Virus record (IMG/VR): IMGVR_UViG_3300029812_000016
Location: 1 to 48,419 of that record
DNA length: 48,419 nucleotides
Reading direction: 5' to 3' (one strand)
Source: a virus
The translations under genes and the position numbers were made by a program. Position 1 is the first letter of the stretch. Each line of letters starts with the position of its first letter. A model generated the notes under the pieces. It was not told where the DNA came from and searched no databases. It saw only the letters and a list, made by a program, of their open reading frames with translations. Positions 681-43,697 of the stretch are shown piece after piece.

Positions 681-864
681 TGAGTACCAAAAATCATTCA
701 ACAAAATAGGTTATCTCAATGCCGAAATTATCACGCGGAAAGCCTATTGTGATCGCCCGTTTGGGACGGGGCGATGCGAATGTCAAATATGTATGCGAGC
801 ACGTATAGATTTAATGCGTAAAGTCAATAAGCTCATGAAACGTGAATTTTACGAGGGTGTCTAA
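673..864 (+). CDS. Small Cys-containing protein, 63 aa
   Basis: Unrecognised. It overlaps the previous gene by 8 bases and ends in a TAATG overlap with the next, as expected for translational coupling. A TTG at 670 is an alternative start. The middle contains GRCECQIC, a C-x-C-x2-C cluster that could hold a metal with Cys 27 further upstream, although only four cysteines are present. The C-terminal third is basic (RKVNKLMKR). Confidence 0.6.
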   Translation: MSSEYQKSFNKIGYLNAEIITRKAYCDRPFGTGRCECQICMRARIDLMRKVNKLMKREFYEGV

Positions 865-1289
865 TGGATCAGCTTCCCACAAAACAAGAGCTTAGATTCC
901 GGCGAGAACGTAAGGAATTGTATGAACGATTAGTTGTAGTAATACAAGGATTATCAGCTAAATTTCCTGTTCAGGTTGATAGTAAAAAGATATTAGAATT
1001 TACTTGTAATCTGCAACCTACGACTGCACAAGATATAGGTACATTTCCTTATATTAGCCCGAAGGGCAGGTTTTCTGAAAACCCATTTTCTGTTTTTTGC
1101 GTGCTCTCTGAAATCAGCCATACAGTTTTAGCTTTCTGGAAATTCATAGCGAATGAGAATGGATTTAGGAAATATACAAAAGCAACCAGAGAAGGAATTG
1201 AACGACTCGAATGGCTGCGGGATAACTGGGAACACTTAACCGTTATGGGAAATCTAAAAGATGGTTATGAATTGGGGGTAAAATTATGA
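864..1289 (+). CDS. Hypothetical protein, 141 aa
   Basis: No family recognised. The start codon shares one base with the preceding stop (TAATG). The N-terminal 30 residues are strongly charged and helical (KQELRFRRERKELYERL), followed by a mixed region with a hydrophobic stretch around residues 75-95. It ends in an ATGA overlap with the small zinc-finger gene. Being in this operon suggests an accessory DNA-metabolism role, but nothing in the sequence shows a function. Confidence 0.6.
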   Translation: MDQLPTKQELRFRRERKELYERLVVVIQGLSAKFPVQVDSKKILEFTCNLQPTTAQDIGTFPYISPKGRFSENPFSVFCVLSEISHTVLAFWKFIANENGFRKYTKATREGIERLEWLRDNWEHLTVMGNLKDGYELGVKL

Positions 1290-1471
1290 TAGTAATCTGT
1301 ACAGAGTGTGATGGAACCGGCCAGAGACGCTATGATGTTGGTACGCATAAAAGTGAATATCGGTATGAGCAATGTAAAAAATGTAAAGGTAGCGGCAGAC
1401 TTATTGAAACTACTGAAACTGAATATGAACCGTTTACACCTGGTGAAACTAAATCAAAATATATATCCTAA
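1286..1471 (+). CDS. DnaJ-type zinc-finger protein, 61 aa
   Basis: Two C-x2-C-x-G-x-G motifs are visible (CTECDGTG near residues 5-12 and CKKCKGSG near residues 30-37), the signature of the DnaJ central cysteine-rich domain. DnaJ has four such repeats binding two zincs; this protein has two and should bind one. There is no J domain. Stand-alone proteins of this sort are common in phages and may act as small scaffolding or nucleic-acid-binding modules. It overlaps the previous gene by four bases. Confidence 0.75.
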   Translation: MIVICTECDGTGQRRYDVGTHKSEYRYEQCKKCKGSGRLIETTETEYEPFTPGETKSKYIS

Positions 1472-1508
1472 GGAGAAAAACCATGACTCTAAATAAGACG
1501 TGGAACCA

Positions 1509-1592
1509 ATGTTTGAAAATATGGTGATAGAAATATATTTTTTCGGAGAAGAAAAATTAGTAAATTTGCTGTTAAAAATCAAGTCACAATGA
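1509..1592 (+). CDS. Possible 27-aa ORF coupled to the polymerase gene
   Basis: A short open frame (starting MFENMVIEIYFFGEEK) ends in a TGA that overlaps the polymerase ATG as ATGA. A GTG at 1500 would add three residues. The amphipathic, non-random composition and the stop-start overlap suggest a real coupling peptide, but the length is too small to be sure. A second tiny frame at 1483, behind AAGGAG, stops after 14 codons and is ignored. Confidence 0.35.
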   Translation: MFENMVIEIYFFGEEKLVNLLLKIKSQ

Positions 1593-4363
1593 AAATCCTT
1601 GATTATGAGACTGCTAAAAAGGTTGTGGTCAAGAATCATTATAGTGGTCGTATGCCGCCTTATCAATTAGCATTGGGATTTTATATAAAAGACAGATTAA
1701 ATTGTGTAATACTTTTTGGTCCCAGTGCGACTGCAAAAATGACTGATAGTTTGCCGTCATCAAATTATTGGGAGCTTTCACGGTTATTTTCATTCGATTG
1801 GGGTAGTAAGAATATCGAAAGTATCTGTATCTCGAAAGCATTAAAATATATTGAAAAAAATTGTAATAAAGATATAATCGTTTCTTTTGCTGATCCATCA
1901 GAGAATCATGTAGGGTATATTTATCAGGCAACAAATTGGCTTTATTGCGGTTTGTCATTAAAAACAGGTGGATACACATACTTTTTTGATAATAAGTGGC
2001 AACACCCTCGTTCAACAGTTGCTAAATATGGAACGCGGAAACATGCTGATATACTCAAAATCGAACCTGATGTTAAATTCAAACGTATCCCGCAAAAGCA
2101 CCGTTACATTTATTTGCTTGGTAGTAAGAAAAAGAAAAAAGAATTGCGGAAAAAATTAAAATATAAGATTCTGCCATATCCTAAACTTAACGCCTCTGAA
2201 GCGGGCGAAGTGTCGAGGGTGACACGCATTGCGTCCAGCGATGAAGGGCTGGTTCGACTCCAGCAGCCCGCTTCAGGGGCGTTAGGCTGGTTCTCAAACT
2301 TACAACAAGCTAACTGGCCCACAGAGATACTTTTACTCGACTTCGAGACGTTTTTTAGTAAGGACTATCATTTGGGTAACGATAAGACAGCTATATCTAT
2401 CCCAGAATATGTAGCCGATCCTCGCTTCGAGTTTACCGGGCTTGGCTTTCAGGTTTTTAACCATCCGTTATATTACAGTGGGCCAACTTTCATCCCTGGG
2501 CCGAGTGTAGAGTGGGCGATTGAAAGATTACAAAAGCACTTTGGTAAAGCCCTGCATAATTGTACAGTTGTAGCTAAAAATAATAAGTTTGATATGCTGA
2601 TTCTTGCTGAAAAATTTGGTATTTATCCCGCTTATCCACTTGACATAGAAGACCTATCCCGGTATCTTGATTCCCGGATGAAACATGATCTTGGAAGCCT
2701 GGCGAAGTTATTCAAACTTCCAAATAAAGGCGATACGGGCCAATTCAAAGGCCAACATTGGGTTGCCAGTTGGTTGACTTCTGGTAATAAGGTCCCAGAC
2801 CGCAGGCTCTGTTCGGGGGACTCTCGTCCCCCGGATAAACCCTTAAAGGATATGGATCATGCGGTAATGAAAGAATATTGTCTAAACGATATTCGACTTG
2901 AAGCAGCCTTATTAAAGAAGTTGCTTCCCATTATAGATAATCCAGAATTTGAATTTACTCTGATGCGACATACTCTTAACCTATTTCTAAAACCTAAGCT
3001 GAAATTGGATTACGAATTAGCGGAACAACTTGCTAATGATATGGAATTAGAGGTTGACCGTACCGTTGAGAGCGTAAAGAAATACTGGCCCCCTAATACT
3101 GGCGAAGCTGAAGTCAGTCGTGTATTACGAACCAGAAAAGAATTTCCTGCTATGTTACAACGATTACTCGGCGATGAGCCGCTACCTATGAAGCAGGGTA
3201 AAAAGGAAATGATCCCTGCTCTGGCTAAGACAGATGAAGCCTGTCAGGCCCTCTTAGTACATAAGAAGGAAAATATACGTGATTTAGTAGCCGCGAAATT
3301 AGGCATGACAACGTGGCCTAAACATGCGAAACGGGTACGAAAGATGATAATCCAGACTCAGTGTTCGGGTGATATGCTTAGAGTACCTCTTAAATACTAC
3401 GGATGTCATACTGGACGTTGGAGTGGATCGGGTGGGATAAACCTTCACAATCTTGGCGGCAAAGGTCGCGGTAAACCTATACATCTGCTTATTGCTAAGG
3501 TTCGTAATTGTTTATTAGCTCCACCTGGATATATATTATCTATAACTGATTCGAGACAAATTGAAGCAAGAGTATTAGCCTGGATAGCAGAATGTGATAA
3601 ACTTGTAAAGGGTTTCGCTAATAAGGAAGATATTTACTCTGAATTTGCAACCGGGTTATTTGGGCATCGAGTATGGAATCCATCAGAAAAGGAAGAAAAA
3701 ACACCTGAAAGTAAATTAGCGGGTATTGAACGGGGGTTTGGAAAGGATGGAATTCTCGGTTGTGGATACGGTCTCGGTTCTAATACATTTTATCAGCGTT
3801 GTCGGGAGAATGATTCCCTTCGCCCAATGTTCGATTCCGGAAAATATGATTGGGATTTTATCAATAAACTCATCAAAACTTACCGGAAAACTTATTCTGA
3901 AATCCCTAAATTCTGGACTAACATAGAAAAAGCATTTCGGTGGGTGACAAAATATCCGGATCAGAAAGCTGAAGTGTTCAAGGGCAAGATTAAAGTGTGG
4001 ATGCAACACGGTACTTTGTGTTGTAGGCTTCCATCAGATCGTGTTCTCTATTACCGACACATGAGTGTAAACACTAAGGGTGATTTGAAATACTTACATG
4101 GACACCTATGGGGCGGTAGCATCACGGAAAATGTAGTTCAGGCAATAAGCCGTGATTTGCTCGGATACTGGGTTTTAGAATTTGAGAAAACAGGAATACC
4201 AATTGTACTTACTTCCCACGATGAGGCTGTCGGATGCGTGTTGAAATCCGGAGCTGAAGATAAATTAGAACAGATGCTTGATATTATGCGAGTCGGTCCC
4301 GCCTGGGCAGAGGGACTGCCATTGGATGCCGAAGGTTATTTGTCGGGGTTTTATAAGAAATAA
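1589..4363 (+). CDS. Mom-like DNA-modification domain fused to family A DNA polymerase with 3'-5' exonuclease
   Basis: Residues 1-198 match the Mom acyltransferase-like family: NHYSG (His17), a YWELSRLF core, SFADPSENH-GYIYQATNW (Asp102, His108), HPRSTVAKYG, QKHRYIYLLG and the usual C-terminal ILPYPK. Mu Mom converts adenine to a carbamoylmethyl form that resists restriction. Residues 200-234 are encoded by a tRNA-like stem segment. The exonuclease follows: Asp251-x-Glu253 (LLDFETF), Asp335 (NNKFD) and Tyr430-x3-Asp434. Polymerase motif A is Asp654 (TDSRQIEAR), motif B has Arg715 and Lys719 then GYG, and motif C is His877-Asp878-Glu879. It is the likely replicative polymerase. Fusion to Mom is unusual. 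Mom and polymerase could also be made separately, but I see no good internal start. Confidence 0.9.
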   Translation: MKILDYETAKKVVVKNHYSGRMPPYQLALGFYIKDRLNCVILFGPSATAKMTDSLPSSNYWELSRLFSFDWGSKNIESICISKALKYIEKNCNKDIIVSFADPSENHVGYIYQATNWLYCGLSLKTGGYTYFFDNKWQHPRSTVAKYGTRKHADILKIEPDVKFKRIPQKHRYIYLLGSKKKKKELRKKLKYKILPYPKLNASEAGEVSRVTRIASSDEGLVRLQQPASGALGWFSNLQQANWPTEILLLDFETFFSKDYHLGNDKTAISIPEYVADPRFEFTGLGFQVFNHPLYYSGPTFIPGPSVEWAIERLQKHFGKALHNCTVVAKNNKFDMLILAEKFGIYPAYPLDIEDLSRYLDSRMKHDLGSLAKLFKLPNKGDTGQFKGQHWVASWLTSGNKVPDRRLCSGDSRPPDKPLKDMDHAVMKEYCLNDIRLEAALLKKLLPIIDNPEFEFTLMRHTLNLFLKPKLKLDYELAEQLANDMELEVDRTVESVKKYWPPNTGEAEVSRVLRTRKEFPAMLQRLLGDEPLPMKQGKKEMIPALAKTDEACQALLVHKKENIRDLVAAKLGMTTWPKHAKRVRKMIIQTQCSGDMLRVPLKYYGCHTGRWSGSGGINLHNLGGKGRGKPIHLLIAKVRNCLLAPPGYILSITDSRQIEARVLAWIAECDKLVKGFANKEDIYSEFATGLFGHRVWNPSEKEEKTPESKLAGIERGFGKDGILGCGYGLGSNTFYQRCRENDSLRPMFDSGKYDWDFINKLIKTYRKTYSEIPKFWTNIEKAFRWVTKYPDQKAEVFKGKIKVWMQHGTLCCRLPSDRVLYYRHMSVNTKGDLKYLHGHLWGGSITENVVQAISRDLLGYWVLEFEKTGIPIVLTSHDEAVGCVLKSGAEDKLEQMLDIMRVGPAWAEGLPLDAEGYLSGFYKK
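2186..2286 (+). other. tRNA-like structured segment inside the polymerase fusion gene
   Basis: Bases 2186-2206 pair with 2266-2286 over 21 bp with only two G-T wobbles. Inside, the sequence folds like a tRNA: acceptor arm around 2201-2207 (one mismatch), a D-like arm GTGTC/GACAC, an anticodon-like arm CATTG/CGATG with a 7-base loop, and a perfect T arm (GCTGG, loop TTCGACT, CCAGC at 2248-2264). The anticodon loop has G where U33 is expected, so it is not an ordinary tRNA. The segment is in frame without stops, encodes the Mom-polymerase linker and is much more GC-rich than its surroundings. Confidence 0.7.
2763..2842 (+). repeat. Structured repeat element, copy 1 (inside the polymerase gene)
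   Basis: It is near-identical to 43615-43697. Three stems are visible: TTGCCAG/CTGGTAA (2763-2769 with 2781-2787, one wobble), GGTC/GACC (2791-2794 with 2798-2801) and CGGGGGA/TCCCCCG (2814-2820 with 2827-2833). The linker GCAGGCTCTGTTC and the tail GATAAACC are conserved between copies, while hairpin loops differ, which suggests conservation of RNA structure. Here the element is translated as a Pro/Arg/Ser-rich insert between exonuclease motifs II and III. Confidence 0.75.
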
Positions 4364-43598: not shown

Positions 43599-43614
43599 GA
43601 GCAGTTGCCAGTTG

Positions 43615-43697
43615 ATTAAATCTTCTGGTAACAAGGTCGAAAGACCGCAGGCTCTGTTCGGGGGAGAAGGCTCCCCCGGATAAACCTTTGAGGAGCA
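43615..43697 (+). repeat. Structured repeat element, copy 2 (intergenic)
   Basis: Same stems as at 2763-2842: TTGCCAG/CTGGTAA (43615-43621, 43635-43641), GGTC-GAAA-GACC (43645-43656, a GNRA-type tetraloop) and CGGGGGA/TCCCCCG (43669-43675, 43682-43688). The linker and tail are the same, while loops differ. It lies between two genes and directly before the ribosome site GAGGAGCAG of the 43702 gene. Confidence 0.75.

Follow-up and report, generated by a model that had tools for sequence, protein, structure and literature searches.

Why should a Mom domain be joined to a DNA polymerase, is the joint real, and what is the segment that lies between the two? These questions are raised by a single open reading frame in an IMG/VR virus record (IMGVR_UViG_3300029812_000016), the whole 48,419-nucleotide stretch of which was analysed and is called the window in the following. 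The Mom-polymerase fusion is real, and the more important result is that a conserved tRNA-Gly-like RNA is encoded within Mom genes.

One reading frame for Mom and a family A DNA polymerase

The reading frame is composed as follows:

1589..4363, + strand: fused open reading frame of 924 amino acids (Mom, tRNA-like linker, family A DNA polymerase), ATG start, no internal stop
1589..2185, + strand: Mom domain, residues 1-199 (Pfam PF25680; structural model; best solved match Mu Mom, 8bv8)
2288..4363, + strand: family A DNA polymerase in the form found without Mom in relatives, from W234 (PHROG_17; comparison with relatives)
2764..2847, + strand: structured repeat of 84 nt, in frame within the exonuclease region; loci L003 and L004 lack it

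The first-pass annotation had read this region as Mom and a family A polymerase in a single frame, and this is borne out, as the frame is open over all 924 codons and both profiles are matched. The Pfam Mom profile PF25680 aligns residues 3-199 with profile positions 6-202 (E 7.7e-41, 140.4 bits, cut-off 27.1), and the ILPYPK motif that had been taken as the end of the domain occupies residues 194-199. Residues that are invariant across 51 aligned Mom proteins, among them H17, Y18, E62, R65, S99, D102, H107, the stretch GYIYQATNW and Y173, are present in the window protein; their lack in relatives, together with a lack of adenine modification, had been named as a ground for rejecting the first-pass reading. 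The structure predicted for Mom (pLDDT 91.9) has phage Mu Mom (8bv8) as its top solved match in Foldseek (E 1.3e-11, TM 0.73), followed in rank by CoA-using enzymes, and according to this model the domain has the Mom fold, which is of the GNAT type. The window protein is therefore like Mu Mom in its whole-profile match, its invariant residues and its predicted fold, but differs from it in that it is joined to a polymerase and that its gene contains a tRNA-Gly-like RNA. With the window's protein as the query, Mom was detectable in 208 of 50,697 phage records. In jumbo phages, Mom domains are joined to endonuclease domains (PMC7824862); there, too, Mom is part of a larger protein, but the partner is a nuclease and not a polymerase.

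The polymerase part is matched by the PHROG_17 DNA polymerase profile over residues 244-920 (E 1.3e-65) and by Pfam DNA_pol_A PF00476 with 37.1 bits (cut-off 34.3). The match to the 3'-5' exonuclease profile PF01612 is suggestive (18.3 bits, cut-off 23.6), and the motifs DFET and YCLNDI are visible in the sequence. The nearest polymerases, encoded at L003, L004 and L006, are 64%, 56% and 41% identical and all lack Mom; the window shares the genomic setting of L003 but differs from its close family A relatives by the N-terminal Mom domain and the 84-nt in-frame repeat. When the structure of the 924-residue product was predicted, as the first-pass annotation had advised, good models were obtained for the Mom and polymerase cores, while residues 199-449 were poorly predicted from a shallow alignment. 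Other proteins found among the scanned open reading frames of the window are a primase, a Sak4-like protein, an exonuclease, a resolvase-like protein and a terminase; no second polymerase was seen among these scanned frames, which are a part of all frames in the window. A literature search, with subscription papers outside its reach, found no published Mom-polymerase fusion and no published link between Mom and tRNA, and as far as this search reached the architecture is new.

The joint lies at the former start of the polymerase gene

The polymerase of L003 starts within the 3' end of the preceding gene, and comparison with this locus reveals the following features around the joint:

1276..2287, strand not assigned: inserted segment of about 1.01 kb (about 1,012 bases), TGG at both edges (comparison with L003)
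1267..1281, + strand: what is left of the old polymerase start, ATG AAT TGG, followed by GGG TAA (ungapped comparison with L003)
864..1289, + strand: gene whose L003 homologue (35% identity) overlaps the polymerase start there
1286..1471, + strand: CxxCxGxG zinc-finger-like open reading frame of 61 amino acids in the insert (DnaJ_CXXCXGXG, E 9e-6, below cut-off)
2210..2221, + strand: two in-frame GTG codons (2210 and 2219), no Shine-Dalgarno sequence

In L003, the stretch CCAGTTGGTACTCAAATCTGCAAAAAGCTAACTGG gives an ungapped alignment with the window on both sides of the insert, the left edge ending with GAATTGG (position 1275) and the right edge starting with TGGTTCTCAAAC (position 2288). Because of this ungapped fit to both edges, the ancestral polymerase gene can be reconstructed as having begun with ATG AAT TGG TTC TCA, with the insert placed after codon 3. 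The old 3' end of the gene at 864-1289, encoding LVLKLTTS and a stop, survives at the right edge (2288-2314). In order, the insert contains the zinc-finger-like frame, a decayed reading frame, Mom and a GC-rich hairpin with a cloverleaf; the GC content is 0.62 in the hairpin versus 0.335 in Mom, and 0.419 in the polymerase. As judged from this comparison, the fusion arose by insertion of a module of Mom and a tRNA-like element into the start of the polymerase gene. The first-pass annotation had considered a frameshift or assembly error between residues 198 and 246, and no frameshift is visible there.

A separate start of the polymerase within the linker was considered and rejected. From the end of Mom to TTG 2372 in the exonuclease region, GTG 2210 and GTG 2219 are the sole ATG, GTG or TTG codons. 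Since the polymerase alone has no ATG and just these two GTG codons without a Shine-Dalgarno sequence ahead of TTG 2372, the fusion protein is the most likely product of 1589-4363.

Two small frames precede Mom in the insert. At 1483-1527, a good Shine-Dalgarno sequence (AAGGAG) and an ATG open a short frame with its stop after codon 14 (MTLNKTWNQCLKIW), which is likely to be a decayed small gene between the zinc-finger-like frame and Mom. In phage Mu, the small zinc-finger protein Com controls translation of mom. The DnaJ-like frame of the window (1286-1471) sits just before Mom and is no more than a candidate relative of Com.

The linker is encoded by a tRNA-Gly-like cloverleaf

The DNA between the Mom domain and the polymerase has a distinctive structure:

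2201..2275, + strand: tRNA-Gly(UCC)-like cloverleaf, read in frame as residues 205-229 (ARAGORN pseudogene setting; covariance models)
2188..2206, + strand: 5' arm of a 19-bp stem, an extension of the acceptor stem (fold)
2266..2284, + strand: 3' arm of the same 19-bp stem (fold)

Over bases 2185-2287 the sequence folds into a hairpin, whose 19-bp stem is topped by a four-armed cloverleaf. In its pseudogene setting, ARAGORN calls the cloverleaf as tRNA-Gly(tcc), the sole such call in the window and one matched by 1 of 5000 shuffles; no tRNA was called at the linker by ARAGORN in default mode, nor by Rfam at the gathering threshold. The window copy scores 87 bits with covariance model R1 and 72.6 bits with R2, both of which include this copy. 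It has kept the identity elements for glycyl-tRNA synthetase (GCG...CGC, U73 and TCC), but carries G33 and UCA where U33 and CCA are found in most of the other copies. Its acceptor stem is longer by 15 base pairs, as against an extension of 0-2 pairs in the other copies checked. Such changes might prevent processing and thereby leave the polymerase message intact; alternatively, they may be signs of decay.

Other identities of the linker were sought. Neither a group I or group II intron nor a riboswitch or any other Rfam family was found at the gathering threshold, the weak match to tRNA-Sec reaching 24.3 bits as against 47, and when plasmids and phages were searched by blastn with the linker, a tRNA-Thr was the sole match. 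Loci L088 and L089 were dismissed as linker relatives as they have the stem sequence alone in common with the window.

The same RNA recurs in Mom genes of many phages

The Mom proteins of L027, L031 and L059 have linkers of similar peptide sequence, and the cloverleaf is also formed by the DNA that encodes them. When IMG/VR was scanned with a pattern, further copies were obtained, all of them within Mom reading frames apart from two chance matches (L099 and L101). In a gap-free alignment of six copies, pairing is kept in 99.2% of the paired cells, and both partners have changed in 12 of 21 pairs. A looser pattern, restricted to RNA features but derived from Mom-linked copies and including their altered T-loop, retrieved 91 stretches, 81 of which were taken forward as copies falling into 26 clusters at 80% identity. 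A Mom frame overlaps the element on the same strand in 16 of these 26 clusters and is directly adjacent in two more (18/26 in total), in one of which the Mom gene has internal TGA codons. The analysed loci contain 57 other tRNAs, and none of these has a Mom gene on its strand within 200 nt. The strict pattern gave four matches in genome contigs, which had no score with R1 or R2 and were taken as chance.

Placement of the element at the 5' end of Mom is as frequent as placement at the 3' end, and three codon phases are represented. The Mom proteins linked to it are very different from one another. Among the checked copies with a Mom frame in the locus, this frame is open through the element in all but three. 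Across 22 copies, pairing amounts to 97%, 17 of 21 pairs are doubly changed, and covariation reaches 0.849, whereas shuffled alignments give 0.229 and slid ones no more than 0.141. It follows from this conservation that constancy is a property of the RNA and not of the peptide, even though the element is translated in most Mom frames. The cloverleaf structure and its linkage to Mom are observations in their own right. At the same time, only 5 of 80 loci fetched by means of Mom carry the element, it is absent from six isolated phages with Mom, and in bacterial genomes Mom scored over the cut-off in 4 of 399 cases, with the element in none of these four loci; the element is therefore not an obligate partner of Mom.

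With phage tRNA-Gly(UCC) genes the element shares the cloverleaf, the anticodon UCC, U73 and, usually, an encoded CCA, but it differs from them in overlapping a Mom frame, and most Mom-linked copies are missed by ARAGORN in default mode. The T-loop TTC is changed to TGC in all of the 22 copies except that of the window, and many D-loops lack GG. The altered T-loop is not diagnostic, because it formed part of the search pattern and occurs as well in phage tRNA-Gly genes that are not linked to Mom.

Some individual loci deserve mention. On contig L116 there are two Mom genes that differ from each other, and both are accompanied by a separate element (1025-1101 and 2478-2554). In L172 (G011:C1:16-567), a Mom match with ten internal TGA codons lies directly before the tRNA-like element, as if TGA were recoded. 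Loci L106, L117, L151, L158, L177 and L186 contain arrays of tRNA-Gly-like genes, some with a TGCRANT T-loop, in phages in which Mom was not detected.

A second fusion, to a family B polymerase

The first-pass annotation had recommended a search for further Mom-polymerase fusions, and one came to light in L027/L100. In L027, a family B DNA polymerase is followed by the cloverleaf and then by Mom, an order opposite to that in the window. This fusion is independent of the one in the window and lends credibility to a connection of Mom with replication. Mom is thus documented in fusion with replicative polymerases from two families, and tRNA-like genes are documented that are translated as part of a protein. 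In Microbacterium phage Lifes (L194, 1971-4513), a Mom-like gene is located two genes upstream of DNA polymerase I, and the element is absent.

Glycyl-tRNA as a candidate glycine donor for Mom

The product of Mom is given as an adenine glycinamide (Swinton 1983, as cited in PMC4461284), and its donor has been supposed to be an acyl-CoA such as glycyl-CoA (PMC7824862). In the literature searched the donor is only presumed; the paper behind 8bv8, which lay outside the reach of the search, may name it. Recognition of tRNA-Gly for charging depends on its first three acceptor pairs together with base 73, C35 and C36 (PMC3990555). In the 22 copies, G1-C72, C2-G71, U73, C35 and C36 are invariant, while the third acceptor pair varies. 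Because the Mom product is an adenine glycinamide and the element keeps the identity bases of tRNA-Gly, we propose glycyl-tRNA as the donor.

The Mom module landed within the start of the phage's polymerase gene, which leaves the polymerase readable only as the C-terminal part of a Mom-linker-polymerase protein or from the two poor GTG codons. The element would be a dedicated tRNA-Gly that is charged by the host's glycyl-tRNA synthetase, and Mom, as a GNAT-fold transferase, would move the glycyl residue from this tRNA to N6 of adenine, where it would rearrange to adenine glycinamide by chemistry that we infer. A GNAT enzyme that takes its glycine from a dedicated tRNA would explain why Mom and tRNA travel as one gene, working together; where a phage lacks the element, its Mom would draw on the glycyl-tRNA of the host. 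The diverged tRNA of the window (U33 to G, CCA to UCA, 15 additional base pairs) may escape being cut from the polymerase message, and one may speculate that fusion to the polymerase places modification near new DNA. Aminoacyl-tRNA-dependent transferases are represented by FemX and Leu/Phe-tRNA-protein transferase, and staphylococci have glycine tRNAs that do not serve translation. The mode proposed to be shared with these systems is the combination of a GNAT-type fold with a tRNA exempt from translation; in the proposed Mom reaction, unlike that of FemX-type transferases, the acceptor would be a DNA base.

Several points speak against a tRNA donor, namely that most Mom loci are devoid of the element, that an acyl-CoA is supposed in the literature and that the next-best structural matches of Mom use CoA; the loss of CCA and U33 argues against a tRNA role for the window copy in particular. 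On balance, we consider it rather probable that insertion of a Mom/tRNA-Gly module and glycyl-tRNA as the glycine source of Mom together account for the locus. For the wider proposition that Mom is a tRNA-dependent DNA-modifying enzyme, with a dedicated tRNA-Gly within the Mom gene in many phages and the module fused to a polymerase in two, we see an even chance. The covarying tRNA-Gly-like RNA that overlaps many Mom genes makes the question of Mom's donor directly testable, and if the proposal is true, tRNA-dependent modification of DNA bases opens as a class.

Alternative explanations

The fusion itself might be what was selected, a covalent Mom-polymerase modifying new DNA as it is replicated, with the tRNA-like sequence as a mere linker; that modification could follow the polymerase had been suggested in the first-pass annotation. 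Two independent fusions with different polymerase families in opposite order fit this idea, as does the position of Mom two genes before DNA polymerase I in phage Lifes, but the conservation of the cloverleaf is at the RNA level, and its linkage to Mom is seen in the absence of a fused polymerase. Furthermore, the insert destroyed the old polymerase start; because the module hit this start and read-through of the tRNA-like RNA is usual in such Mom genes, the fusion could be a by-product of the module's landing site. We therefore hold selection for replication coupling to be unlikely. Regulation of Mom translation by the RNA, bound by glycyl-tRNA synthetase or another factor without donation of glycine, appears still less likely to us. 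It would suit the tight control of Mu Mom, which is toxic when over-made (PMC4461284), and an element that overlaps the Mom frame and is usually translated, yet 3' placement as frequent as 5' placement and differing codon phases are unlike a translation operator, and neither retention of the charging determinants nor that of an encoded CCA is in keeping with it.

Some of the copies found by pattern are ordinary phage tRNA-Gly genes, some of them within tRNA arrays, so Mom might simply happen to land in a tRNA-Gly gene that is a recombination hot spot. This we regard as decidedly improbable in view of the common strand, the overlap, the use of both ends, the great differences between the Mom proteins and Mom as almost the sole neighbour, with none of the 57 other tRNAs adjoining Mom. 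An assembly chimera, in which Mom and polymerase stem from different phages and were joined by the assembler, would agree with their different GC contents, and the junction is known from assembled sequence alone; but a single ancestral sequence accounts for both edges with base precision and has left remnants on either side, the frame is open across the joint and a second fusion with the same RNA exists, which leaves very little room for an artefact. Least probable of all, to a degree that we hardly reckon with it, is an integron origin, with Mom as a gene cassette and the hairpin as an attC site: the ends ACTTAAC...GTTAGGC resemble R boxes and phages do carry attC sites (PMC9892861), but the interior belongs to the tRNA-like family, and the arms are fully paired without a spacer or extrahelical base, unlike the candidate attC sites of the integron-bearing phages L091 and L092. 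The preferred reading remains insertion of a Mom/tRNA-Gly module, in which the element would be charged with glycine and serve as donor.

A dispersed repeat in the polymerase gene

The 84-nt repeat in the exonuclease region belongs to a dispersed structured repeat of about 85 nt, which is present at 2764-2847 and 43604-43689 in the window and at 2949-3036 and 6223-6311 in L093. An Rfam search with it returned no match. Its layout is a hairpin, AAGGTCGNAAGACCGCAGGCTCTGTTC, a variable hairpin and GGATAAACC. The repeat is intergenic at three of these sites, whereas in the window polymerase it is inserted in frame.
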